From the NCBI RefSeq assembly GCF_012933555.1, contig NZ_JABBPK010000001.1, forward strand, positions 2,024,001-2,088,000: a stretch of DNA of 64,000 bases, read 5' to 3'. A program made the translations under genes and the position numbers. The stretch comes from Niallia alba. Its GTDB lineage: Bacteria; Bacillota; Bacilli; Bacillales; Cytobacillaceae. Positions 2,782-62,827 of this stretch are shown one piece after another (the first letter of the stretch is position 1; each line of letters starts with the position of its first letter). The notes below the pieces were generated by a model. That model worked only from the letters and a program-made list of their open reading frames with translations, had not been told where the DNA came from and did no database searches.

Positions 2782-2895
2782 GCAGGCTGAATACACGTAG
2801 ACTCCTGTGGGATTAGCGAGAAAGGTGAGACCCCGCAGGCTGTGCCGAGGAGGCTCACCGCTCGCCCCACGGAAAGCGAAGTGTATTCAGCCTGC
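2782..2895 (+). repeat. GC-rich palindromic repeat upstream of pyrB
   Basis: Perfect 15-bp end arms GCAGGCTGAATACAC (2782-2796) and GTGTATTCAGCCTGC (2881-2895) enclose a GC-rich centre with ACTCCTGTGGG and CCCCACGGAAAGCGAAG. The same core occurs at 12576, 18136 and 60339. It lies between the third attenuator terminator and pyrB, leaving 39 nt to the pyrB start. The longer mobile-element ends seen in other copies are not clear here. Confidence 0.9.
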
Positions 2896-2907: not shown

Positions 2908-5121
<2,214 letters not shown>

Positions 5122-12544: not shown

Positions 12545-12750
12545 GGCTGTTTCAGTACAGTTAGTGTTAATATCCGCAGCCTGAATACACTTCGCTTTCC
12601 ATGGGGCGAGCGCCGAGCCGCTTCGGCCTATGGCCTGCAGGGTCTCGGACTTTCTCGCAGCTCCCATAGGAGTCTACGTGTATTCAGGCTGCTCCATATT
12701 TCCTACTAATTCATTTTTTCTAAAAAAACAATATTTTTTAGGGAATTGCC
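12545..12750 (-). mobile_element. Probable miniature mobile element, reverse copy
   Basis: Read on the minus strand, this 206-bp stretch follows the copy at 60280-60451: an end GGCTGTTT, then CCGCAGCCTGAATACAC (12574-12590), a GC-rich centre, the partner GTGTATTCAGGCTGC (12678-12692), an AT-rich arm with CTAATTC, and an end near GAATTGCC. The flanks TTATAAAA and TTTAAAAA agree at 6 of 8 bases, a decayed or absent target duplication. No coding sequence is inside. Confidence 0.7.
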
Positions 12751-26983: not shown

Positions 26984-27035
26984 TTTTAAGCGAAAATGAA
27001 AGTATTTTCTTTGAGTTTTGATGCTAGAAATCAAT

Positions 27036-27160
27036 GGCTGTTTTAAAAGATACTAAAACACCTGAAGACGCCAAGGGAATTAGCGAGTCAGGAGAAACCC
27101 CAATGAAAGTGAAGTGTATTTTGATCACGGGTAATCTCAACAATCTTTAATAAAACAGCC
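27036..27160 (+). mobile_element. Miniature mobile element with 8-bp target duplication
   Basis: Ends GGCTGTTTTAAAAGAT (27036) and AAAACAGCC (to 27160) are inverted. The flanks carry AAATCAAT on both sides (27028-27035 and 27161-27168), a perfect 8-bp direct repeat. Inside, TTAGCGAGTCAGG, AACCCCAATGAAAGTGAAGTGTATTTTGATC is a decayed version of the GC-rich core found in other copies. It lies between the binding-protein and permease genes. Confidence 0.8.
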
Positions 27161-27180
27161 AAATCAATAAACATAGTAAG

Positions 27181-27236
27181 GCAGCCTAAATACAGAAACC
27201 AAAATTGCTAGTAGGTAAACTTATGTATTTGGGCTG
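27181..27236 (+). repeat. Short hairpin related to the repeat core
   Basis: GCAGCCTAAATACA and TGTATTTGGGCTG pair with one mismatched position, leaving a loop of about 29 nt. The ends resemble the GCAGCCTGAATACAC core of the larger repeats. It lies between the mobile element and the first permease gene. Confidence 0.65.
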
Positions 27237-27304
27237 TAACCTTAAAATGTATAAGATCTACGAATCTTATTCTAATAGAAGCAAGAGGAAAGGAAGTAGG
27301 GCGT

Positions 27305-41148: not shown

Positions 41149-41246
41149 TGCTGGTTTCTAAAGGATTGTTGTCTTAACGCGAGCCTCACGGAAAGCGAAG
41201 TGTATTCCGGCTGCGGAGAATAACCACAAACTTTACGAAACCAGCC
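41149..41246 (+). mobile_element. Truncated miniature mobile element with 9-bp flanking repeat
   Basis: Inverted ends GCTGGTTTC and GAAACCAGC enclose GATTGTTGTCTTAACGCG, then CCTCACGGAAAGCGAAG and GTGTATTCCGGCTGCGG, which is the right half of the core seen at 60339-60419. The left half of the core is deleted. The flanks are TAGTTTTTT on both sides (41140-41148 and 41247-41255). It occupies the rsgA-thiN spacer. Confidence 0.75.
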
Positions 41247-59945: not shown

Positions 59946-60279
59946 ACTGATTAGACTGCTGATAAATGAAATATAAATTAGTCTTTCACAACAAAATGTT
60001 AAAACGAACAATTTTATAATCCATACTAATCACCAAAACTTCTGTAAGCATACCAAAACAGGAGTTTTTAAATTTTACGCGTAAAAAAATAGTTGCTAAC
60101 ACATAAAACATTTCCAACATTCCCCTCGTCTAATAAAATATAGAAACTCATAATGAAATTACAAAAAAATATATGTATAAAAAGTATATAATAATGTAAA
60201 ATTACATTATGAATTTTTTTCTAATTTACTGTAGGGGGGAAACAGTTAACAGACGTCTATTAAATAGAATAAAAAATAA
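59946..60279. other. AT-rich spacer upstream of the ABC locus
   Basis: It begins with decayed array units (AACTGATTAG, TGCTGATAAATG), then the terminator at 60035-60075, then AT-rich sequence with TATAAT (60187-60192) that may be a -10 box. GGGGGAAACAG at 60235-60245 is repeated at 60465-60475 on the other side of the mobile element. No gene seen. Confidence 0.45.
60035..60075 (+). terminator. Terminator downstream of the 41-bp array
   Basis: AAAACTTCTGT and ACAGGAGTTTT pair over a 12-nt loop, followed by TAAATTTT. It could end a transcript that starts before the small membrane gene and runs through the array. Confidence 0.6.
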
Positions 60280-60451
60280 GGCTGTTTTCTAAAAGATTAT
60301 TTTTTTCAATAGGAGAAAAGAATTAGTTGGAAAATGGAGCAGCCGGAATACACGTAGACTCCTGTGAGCCGAAGCGGCTCAGCGCGAGCCCCACGGAAAG
60401 CGAAGTGTATTTCGGCTGCGGGTAATAGCAACAAACTTTATGAAAACAGCC
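60280..60451 (+). mobile_element. Miniature mobile element, most complete copy, with 8-bp flanking repeat
   Basis: Inverted ends GGCTGTTTTC (60280-60289) and GAAAACAGCC (60442-60451); the similarity extends to AAAGATT/AAACTTT. AAAAATAA flanks it directly on both sides (60272-60279 and 60452-60459). The core hairpin runs from GCAGCCGGAATACAC (60339) to GTGTATTTCGGCTGC (60419), with inner arms GAGCCGAAGCGGCTC. There is no reading frame for a transposase, so it would depend on an enzyme encoded elsewhere. Confidence 0.85.
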
Positions 60452-60478
60452 AAAAATAAAAAATGGGGGAAACAGAGT

Positions 60479-62827
60479 TTGCGAAATGTCAAAAAAGTCA
60501 TAATCATATGTTTTATTTTATTTTTGGCCACTACTTTTATTGTAAAAGAAGCAAATGCAGCAACATCTACAGCCGAAATAAAAATTACAACAGAAGCTGG
60601 ATTAGCTGGAAAAGTAATCGACGGAAAGGGATTTTTATTAAAAGTTACCATTGAAAATAGTGGTAAAGATTTCAAAGGTGATTTATTAGTTCCTTATTCT
60701 CCGAGTTATGAAGTGGGAGGACAAACATTAGTGTCTGTAGATATTCCGGCGAATAGTAAGAAGACCTATATGGTCACAATGCCAGGGATTTCTTCTGATT
60801 CTAACTATGCTAATAATAAAATGAAATTATATCGCGGGAGTTGGAAGAAGGGTGATGAGGTAACTTTTGCTGGAGTAAAAGAAGTGAGAGTTAATTTTAT
60901 TTCTCAACAAACCTTAGGTATTCTAACTGATCAATATGATAAATTTAAAGATTTAAGAAAGTTTCCAAGTAATTCAATTTATACAACAGAACTTTTAAAA
61001 GAAGATTTACCAGATCAAGCGTTAGCTCTTGAAACTGTAAGTTATTTACTCGTTGATCAGTTTTCACTTACAGAATTAACAGATGCGCAGCAACAAGCGA
61101 TTAAAAATTGGATTGAAAATGGAGGTATTTTAATCACTGGTGCCTCAACAAATGGTAAGCAGGTATACGGCAATTTAGAAACAGTCATGCCGTTAGCACT
61201 TGGTGATCAAGAAACGATTTCCTTGGAGGCAATTGATTCAAAAAGCAAACAACTAGAGAAAATAAATGGTTTTCAATCTTCGCTAACAGATGGAGCTGAA
61301 GCAATTGTTTTACATAATGACCAGCCTATTATTGCTAAAAAGACACTTGGTGGAGGAAAAGTAATGCAAACTTCCTTTTCACTAAGTGATCCGGCTTTTC
61401 TTAGCTGGCAAGGATTCAATAGTTGGATGGAAAAAATACTATTAGCAGAGAATACGCAACATTCCGCTAATTATCAGTATAGTAATAGTCCAATCAGTAA
61501 TCTTTATTATAACTTTGTGGAATCGAATGAGTATTTTAAAAATTCTACTATATCAACAAGTATCTTATTAATTATTTTAGCAGGATATTTGCTCGTTATT
61601 GTGCCGATTTTATATTTTATGTTAAAAAAGATCGACAAGCGTGAACATGCTTGGTGGATTATTCCGTGTCTATCCATTCTTTTATCAATTGGAGTGTTCT
61701 TTACAGGTGCAAAGGATAAAATAAAAAATCCACAATTCAATGAAATGGGCATCTATCAATATAACGATAACTATTTATCTGGATATCAAGCAACTACGCT
61801 TTTATCGAATAAATCAGGTGATTTTACGTTAACGTATGATAAGAATGCATATACGCCAATTCCGTATTTAGGATATGGAGAATTGCAAGTAAAGGCCATT
61901 ACAAGTGAAAAAATAAAAAAGAATGAAATTATTTTTCCAGAAGTAGAGTATTGGTCTAGTCGTACTATGTTCGGCAAATCTAGCATACCGCTAGAAGGCG
62001 GATTTGGTCATGAATTTGACACAACAGAGAAAGAAATTTCTGGGACGATAACCAATCATTATCCATATGACTTTGCAAGAGTATTTATATGGTCTGGGAC
62101 GGAAAAAATCGACTTAGGCTCCCTAGCTGCTGGAGAAACAAAAAAAGTTAAGGCTACCCATAAACATAAGTATTTTTCCAGACCAACTGATACAAATCAA
62201 GGCTATTATCTTTATGATTATAATGGCAAAGATTTAAATGAGTATAGGGAATTAGCTGCGTCAAGTATGGTGTTAAATACGGATTACTTTAAGAATGTGT
62301 CAACTGGAGATCCGTTGTTAATTGGAATTACGAATGAGGATATTGTCAAGGTTGAATTAACAAGTGGAAAGGTAACGAAGAATAGCACTAACTTAATTAT
62401 GGAGCCTATTACAATAGCAAATAATTTTCCTGGGCCGTTTACCTTAAATGAAGGGAACATGGAACAGAAATTAACGGTAATCGAGGGGGCTATCTATAAT
62501 GAGAACTTCCAATATAATGATATTTCCTTAGAAGATGGGAAGTATCTATATACGCTTGGTATTCCTAAATCTTATGAAGAAAGCTCCATTGCTTTGGATT
62601 CTTTAACCGTACAACCAATGGGAAATATGGGTGTGAAATATAGTATTTATAATAAACGCACGGATGATTATGAAGAAGTGAAAAGTCTTTTTAAAGTGGA
62701 GAAAGAAAAAATTGGCGATTATGTTGATAAAAATAGAAAAATCACTATTAAGGTGGATAAAGCAACGAATGGAGATCCATATATGCAACTGCCATCTGTT
62801 AAGGTCAAAGGAGAGATAAAAGAATGA
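60479..62827 (+). CDS. Large membrane-anchored extracytoplasmic protein of an ABC locus
   Basis: A protein of about 782 residues that I can describe but not name. With the start at TTG 60479 (GGGGG nine bases upstream) it opens with a clean signal peptide ending KEANA. An earlier ATG at 60440 lies in the end of a mobile repeat and lacks a ribosome site. A beta-rich part is followed by a segment like amidotransferase-fold domains (QQQAIKNWIENGGILITGAS, near residue 210). Two membrane spans come near residues 360-410, and then a long C-terminal extracytoplasmic part. It overlaps the ABC ATPase gene by four bases, so it probably belongs to that transporter. Confidence 0.8.
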   Translation: MRNVKKVIIICFILFLATTFIVKEANAATSTAEIKITTEAGLAGKVIDGKGFLLKVTIENSGKDFKGDLLVPYSPSYEVGGQTLVSVDIPANSKKTYMVTMPGISSDSNYANNKMKLYRGSWKKGDEVTFAGVKEVRVNFISQQTLGILTDQYDKFKDLRKFPSNSIYTTELLKEDLPDQALALETVSYLLVDQFSLTELTDAQQQAIKNWIENGGILITGASTNGKQVYGNLETVMPLALGDQETISLEAIDSKSKQLEKINGFQSSLTDGAEAIVLHNDQPIIAKKTLGGGKVMQTSFSLSDPAFLSWQGFNSWMEKILLAENTQHSANYQYSNSPISNLYYNFVESNEYFKNSTISTSILLIILAGYLLVIVPILYFMLKKIDKREHAWWIIPCLSILLSIGVFFTGAKDKIKNPQFNEMGIYQYNDNYLSGYQATTLLSNKSGDFTLTYDKNAYTPIPYLGYGELQVKAITSEKIKKNEIIFPEVEYWSSRTMFGKSSIPLEGGFGHEFDTTEKEISGTITNHYPYDFARVFIWSGTEKIDLGSLAAGETKKVKATHKHKYFSRPTDTNQGYYLYDYNGKDLNEYRELAASSMVLNTDYFKNVSTGDPLLIGITNEDIVKVELTSGKVTKNSTNLIMEPITIANNFPGPFTLNEGNMEQKLTVIEGAIYNENFQYNDISLEDGKYLYTLGIPKSYEESSIALDSLTVQPMGNMGVKYSIYNKRTDDYEEVKSLFKVEKEKIGDYVDKNRKITIKVDKATNGDPYMQLPSVKVKGEIKE

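Follow-up and report, generated by a model that had tools for sequence, protein, structure and literature searches.

The unit at positions 60280–60451 of the window, by which we mean the whole 64-kb stretch of Niallia alba DNA analysed here (2,024,001–2,088,000 of the 5.23-Mb chromosome), is very probably a non-autonomous miniature transposon (MITE) of the IS1595 family, in which the hairpin interior is optional cargo. A sequence-only reading had proposed a miniature transposon with inverted ends, a hairpin core and 8-bp flanking repeats at this place, and both the ends (GGCTGTTTTC at the start, GAAAACAGCC at the finish) and the AAAAATAA flanks were confirmed. The copy and its parts are as follows.

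60280..60451, plus strand: very probable IS1595-type MITE copy, 172 bp, about 37 bp short of the 209-bp consensus, with the gap in the apical part of the hairpin
60272..60279, unstranded: left target-site duplication AAAAATAA, present once, as AAAAATAA or AAAAATAG, at the empty site in relatives G007, G008, G009 and G012
60452..60459, unstranded: right target-site duplication AAAAATAA
60280..60302, plus strand: left terminal inverted repeat GGCTGTTTTCTAAAAGATTATTT, matching the end pattern
60429..60451, minus strand: right terminal inverted repeat, GGCTGTTTTCATAAAGTTTGTTG on the minus strand, matching the end pattern
60339..60419, plus strand: hairpin core GCAGCCGGAATACAC...GTGTATTTCGGCTGC; related hairpins covary across genera

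A search of a plasmid collection with the element gave no match at E 1e-5, and Rfam searches of this copy, of the L007 copy and of four loci of other genera returned only sub-threshold matches, none reaching a gathering score. The in-frame ATG of the reading frame 60440–62827 comes from the last 12 bases (60440–60451) of the MITE copy, and relatives in which the site is empty retain a TTG further in, with a G-rich stretch ahead of it. The listed start at 60440 may thus be an insertion artefact.

The window also holds further copies and cores of the same kind.

27036..27160, plus strand: older, shortened family copy, with AAATCAAT on both flanks (27028–27035 and 27161–27168)
41149..41246, plus strand: deleted copy of 98 bp that retains the right half of the hairpin, with TAGTTTTTT on both flanks
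2782..2895, plus strand: hairpin core with no recognisable transposon ends
12576..12692, minus strand: hairpin core adjoining a degenerate end-like stretch, GGCTGTTTC, at 12545

The sequence-only reading had named the copies at 27036 and 41149 as relatives with flanking repeats of their own. For the former this was borne out; for the latter the repeat itself stood, while its length of 9 bp is equivocal, an 8-bp duplication with slippage being as likely as a true 9 bp because the first base of the copy is T, not G, and lies within a T run. The cores at 2782–2895 and 12576–12692 are two additions to that reading. The complete core at 2782–2895 sits between the large reading frames 1267–2592 and 2935–3873, downstream of two Rfam PyrR binding sites and directly behind a terminator-like stem, a place at which one could expect a third attenuator. 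Adjoining the copy at 27036, a further inverted repeat pair, GGCAGCCTAAATACA ... TGTATTTGGGCTG, was seen by eye at 27175–27240.

Across the genome, the 23-position end pattern (up to 2 mismatches) matched 192 places against 3 for a reversed-pattern control, and the pattern of the hairpin right arm matched 205 against 1; a first similarity search gave at least 74 matching pieces, 40 of 334 candidates being scored. The copies studied came from the surroundings of the 100 places listed first in each pattern search, so the sample is skewed to less diverged copies. Forty copies of 200–216 bp yielded a consensus element of 209 bp, in which the core of about 115 bp occupies approximately positions 63–177. 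Of 98 candidate pairs of ends, 60 were kept on the basis of two recognisable ends (up to 4 mismatches in 23), with the flanks ignored in the choice; many of the 38 dropped pairs were B repeats, a related repeat type treated below, and the copy at 27036–27160 lay outside the candidate list and hence is not one of the 60. The copies retained span 85–215 bp, and none has a transposase gene inside.

The excess of flanking duplications that the sequence-only reading had predicted was evident in this set. An exact 8-bp flanking repeat was present in 33 of the 60 copies, against a mean of 0.22 and a maximum of 2 in 59 rotations of a control in which the left flank of each copy was paired with the right flank of another, so that the same AT-rich flanks were used; with up to one mismatch allowed, the count rose to 43 (control mean 1.9, maximum 5), and in the other 17 copies the flanks differ at more than one base. 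The signal is specific in length and register: exact repeats of 6, 7, 9, 10 and 11 bp occurred in 0, 2, 1, 0 and 0 copies, which is no excess, and with the register displaced by one to three bases 0 or 1 exact 8-bp repeats remained. The duplicated targets are A/T-rich.

Empty sites in related genomes, a check set in advance by the sequence-only reading, were found for the 60280 copy and most of the others tried. Eight insertion sites of the N. alba genome, picked for their short distance to reading frames and with the 60280 copy added among them, were searched as joined flanks in 13 genomes of the genus, the source genome included, and at seven of the eight, relatives run through the junction without an element-sized gap. 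The site of the 60280 copy is empty in the four relatives listed above, each with one target, and the same four lack the insertions at 2301390 and 1669561; that at 3178879 is empty in G008 and G009. A further relative, G010, spans sites 2301390 and 3178879 at the level of the search. Site 1758172 is most clearly empty in G012, with a single TTTATAAG, and its match in G009 has extra bases. Sites 1486877 and 2666539 are spanned in four and two relatives, respectively, and the one junction viewed for each was poorly aligned. For site 451729, no match across the junction was found in any relative among the 13 genomes searched.

These results bear on the alternative that the repeat is a stationary intergenic palindrome, REP-like or terminator-like, beside which flanking repeats arise by chance in AT-rich DNA. 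The targets are indeed so AT-rich that single duplications are weak as evidence, and the hairpin also occurs without recognisable ends, at 2782–2895 in the window and at 54 of 65 loci elsewhere. Against these points stand the duplication counts relative to their control, the seven empty sites and the finding that no terminator-like match was detected at the 60280 copy. As an account of the family we consider this alternative extremely improbable; it is refuted for end-bearing copies and may hold for hairpins without ends.

Assignment of the MITE to IS1595 rests on full-length elements with the same kind of ends. IS1595 is not alone in having ends that start with GG and duplications of 8 bp, and a MITE of another family with 8–9-bp duplications, such as the ISL3 and IS256 offered as examples by the sequence-only reading, has to be weighed. 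The full-length elements recovered with such ends and 8-bp duplications, by PF12762 and exact-end searches, encode IS1595 transposases. PF12762, the IS1595 transposase family, was matched in 9 of the 13 genomes of the genus (N. alba included), and five of 18 fetched loci (L163, L167, L168, L173 and L175) have GGCT(G/C)TTT-type ends, for example GGCTGTTTTCGCATAGATTGTTG and GGCTCTTTTCGTAAGAATTGTTG, with exact 8-bp AT-rich repeats; the transposase gene of L163 has an internal stop. A common left-end form of the MITE, GGCTGTTTTCTAAAAGATTGTTG, matches the right end of L172, a multicopy IS1595 element of G009, at all but 1 of 23 positions, and the commonest left-end form has one difference more. An exact search of named genomes with the GGCTGTTTTCTAAAAGATTGTTG end returned at least 120 stretches, and the 23-bp left end is exact in two complete IS1595 elements: L287 of Sporosarcina globispora, a 1.84-kb element with both ends, ATAAAAAA on both flanks and a transposase of 335 aa (NF033547 at 1.5e-61), and L260 of Paenibacillus castaneae, a 1.59-kb element with a diverged right end, TTAATCAA on both flanks and an IS1595 transposase (NF033547 at 1.4e-58). 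All five transposases scanned from full-length elements with such ends matched NF033547, with E values from 1.4e-58 to 9.1e-64. ISL3 and IS256 do not fit the elements recovered by these searches, and an origin in another family, already largely refuted, is in our judgement highly unlikely. In the IS1595 elements L287, L260 and L292, extra internal reading frames were seen that appear by eye to be acetyltransferase-like, cupin-like and peptidase-like.

The search for a full-length partner with the same ends, which the sequence-only reading had recommended, therefore succeeded in congeners, Sporosarcina and Paenibacillus, and failed in the N. alba genome, where neither the PF12762 search nor a search with the L177 transposase found a partner with matching ends. 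The IS1595 members found there share 35–46% identity with the G009 transposase, and their ends are of the GGCTCTGTT type. In 754 kb of that genome sampled, no plausible element was found between matching ends spaced to hold a transposase; one 'LONG' pair of ends about 5 kb apart was rejected as an element since it joins ends at two places with separate copies. With only distant IS1595 members bearing other ends, the family looks orphaned in N. alba, or moved by some relative. Its mobility today is putative, and a matching partner in the same genome is not needed for past mobility. We propose that an IS1595 DDE transposase would have cut and joined the two ends, having been provided in trans in an ancestor or encoded by a transposon that has since disappeared.

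Several described repeats resemble this element in part. The 165-bp MITE listed for ISHwa6 of Haloquadratum walsbyi, in the IS1595 family (PMC3852290), is likewise short and non-coding, with an IS1595 partner, inverted ends approximately 25 bp long and direct repeats of 8 bp; as that MITE is described there, it is unlike the present one, which belongs to Bacillus relatives and has a conserved, covarying hairpin interior that also occurs under other end types. ISApl4, as presented in PMC12561309, shares the A/T-rich 8-bp direct repeats, the inverted ends starting with GG and an IS1595-type transposase, but is a 712-bp autonomous element, whereas the MITE here encodes nothing. The bcr1 and other Bacillus cereus repeats are also short multicopy mobile repeats of Bacillus-group genomes, with a mobility tied to TTTAT motifs in the account given (PMC6542083), in contrast to the 8-bp AT-rich duplications and IS1595-type ends found here, a distinction drawn from description only. 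Bhal-1, a family of stem-loop repeats from B. halodurans, itself a Bacillus relative, may represent this same hairpin, judging from its description only; it is tabulated as 74 bp in 36 copies, with no IS link noted in the table (PMC2267715). In the titles and abstract openings of the literature covered, subscription papers being mostly outside, we found no account of the element, or of IS1595 MITEs with a hairpin from Bacillus relatives. Of four fragments of the hairpin, one occurs in a paper on Pseudomonas putida.

The hairpin core occurs in many related genomes. In a search of 121 genomes of the family (N. alba included; about six candidates per genome scored), the 209-bp query matched 106 genomes and 23 of 25 genera, and outside the genus most of the matches listed cover the core alone (positions about 69–165). 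The core lies within GGCTGTTTTC-ended elements of other genera (G036, G044 and G069 and, by eye, G031 with GGCTCTTTTC), within elements ended by GGCTGTGTTAA or GGCTCTGTT (G043 and G014) and, again by eye, within the TATATAAGAKGAAC-ended elements L195 and L251. The remark of the sequence-only reading that the hairpin core, ordinarily met as a free palindrome between genes, is in this case the content of a mobile unit holds up, in other genera as well. At 11 of 65 hairpin loci outside the N. alba genome, in seven genera, the ends were of the GG..CC type with an 8-bp repeat (up to one mismatch), compared with 0 to 2 when mismatched flanks were used in 20 shuffles (at most 63 pairs each). Some of the 65 loci overlap at the same place, and three others that had been fetched but showed no recognisable hairpin arm were omitted. 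Because the other 54 lack recognisable GG..CC ends with duplications, carriage by an IS1595-type MITE is demonstrated for a minority, and part of the hairpin family may consist of decayed copies or have travelled by another route.

Conversely, the ends occur without the core. Copies of 85 and 86 bp (3240911–3240995 and 1592242–1592327) lack it, have perfect duplications and share the same inner junction, which argues that the core is not needed for movement and looks like cargo. Among at least 121 exact left ends found, 71 were unpaired and 50 were paired with a right end, the duplication serving as a criterion of pairing; the core was present in 32 of the 50. Four elements of 172–173 bp from Rossellomorea aquimaris and [Bacillus] enclensis (L262, L263, L303 and L337) have the same left end around another interior inverted repeat, GAAAATACC...GGTATTTTC, which suggests that the interior of the MITE is exchangeable.

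The B repeats, present in at least eight nearly identical copies (L031–L038, at C1:67006-67208 and seven other places), are about 380 bp long, have the ends GAGGATGGGACATAA / TTATGTCCCAGCCTC and contain the same hairpin between degenerate MITE ends, with no visible 8-bp duplication. We read the B repeat as a putative nested carrier of the MITE, with outer ends that we take to resemble those of IS1182 elements. By eye, IS1595-ended elements of 357–571 bp were seen to hold two different hairpins (L288 and L301 of Bacillus fonticola, L340 and L344), and larger B. fonticola elements (L277 and L299) contain repeated coding-like DNA and pieces resembling another transposase. A bolder reading, which is possible though we hold it to be on the improbable side, is that the hairpin is a second-order mobile module, a strand-selected fold of RNA or single-stranded DNA that passes among unrelated MITE families as vehicles, sometimes two per element; counted as its carriers would be two kinds of IS1595-type ends, a GAGGATGGGACATAA-ended and a TATATAAGAKGAAC-ended element.

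The fold itself is conserved across lineages. Of 50 cores extracted, 37 from this genus and others were aligned after omission of near-duplicates and rearranged cores, and 14 of 33 predicted pairs were changed on both sides; these figures count sequences, not independent events, and the structure was taken from the same alignment. Paired cells reached 96.2% compared with 87.7% in shuffled data, and double-change cells 109 compared with 33, neither value being reached in any of 500 shuffles. Two other measures were weaker: pairs with double changes numbered 14 compared with 9.7 (reached by 1 of 500 shuffles), and further pair types, a weak measure of covariation, 29 compared with 25.9 (reached by 29 of 500). 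Slid structures gave 35–42% pairing. Loop positions C24, G25, A27, A29 and C32 on the left and A102, A103, G107 and A108 on the right (L007 numbering) are invariant or at least 90% conserved among the 37 cores, some other internal-loop positions being less conserved, and a U-G wobble is retained in 35 of 37. On the GGAAAGCGAAG strand, G-U pairs outnumber A-C by 61 to 7, or 26 to 7 without one fixed pair, and this strand is therefore the likely folded one.

Quasi-palindromes are known to mutate by template switching, through which a palindrome self-corrects, so that both arms change together and double changes need not reflect selection. Several double changes are common within lineages and may represent few events, the counts being of sequences, as would suit such an origin. 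Yet template switching should erase mismatched internal loops and wobbles, and here the conserved loop positions and the U-G wobble persist and wobbles fall mainly on one strand; we thus regard it as a rather unlikely source of the pattern. The fold would instead show signs of strand-specific selection, making the hairpin a candidate for function. In the mechanism that we consider most likely, the GGAAAGCGAAG strand would fold as RNA in transcripts that run through the insertion; within the same proposal, it may alternatively fold as single-stranded DNA on the lagging-strand template. Element lineages with the fold may then have been tolerated or spread better.

The copies are also oriented non-randomly. 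Among the strictly defined copies that lie between genes of the same direction, the core is on the coding strand in 29 of 33 (29:4), five more having no oriented core. GC skew places the terminus near 2.6 Mb. Relative to replication so defined, strict copies have a core that follows the fork in 27 of 31 cases beside leading-strand gene pairs, in 10 of 12 where the neighbouring genes converge and in 2 of 5 where they diverge; the two strict copies beside lagging-strand pairs follow the genes and not replication. The bias falls once every non-B core of the sample is included (38 of 54 beside leading-strand pairs, 19 of 27 between convergent and 8 of 12 between divergent genes), and between head-on gene pairs two such cores go with the genes and one against. 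B repeats follow replication in 14 of 23 placed cases. In named genomes, the exact left ends run with the genes in 31 of 48 tandem cases (31:17), including 15 of 21 that bear the core. Genes were approximated by reading frames of 80 or 100 codons, so single orientation cases may be wrong. By eye, the preferred strand flips at about mid-record in G048 and the first half of G061 is without preference; this was not used as evidence, and the counts from the pattern searched there are too low because its code S misses the CCAC form.

The orientation bias may come from the insertion step, through transposition tied to fork direction, and not from any function of the hairpin; we hold this to be only slightly less probable than an even chance. 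Between convergent genes, where transcription sets no preference, replication was followed 10:2 by strict copies and 19:8 by all non-B cores, as an insertion bias would predict, but between divergent genes the strict copies divide 2:3, and head-on gene pairs, with two strict copies and three non-B cores, are too few to split replication from transcription. The two effects are inseparable at these numbers.

These results give an origin to at least some copies of an intergenic palindrome that is common in Bacillus relatives, as the interior, now or formerly, of MITEs with IS1595-type ends. They also offer a natural case of one folded module on several mobile elements with signs of strand-specific selection, so that whether such bacterial palindromes act becomes directly testable.
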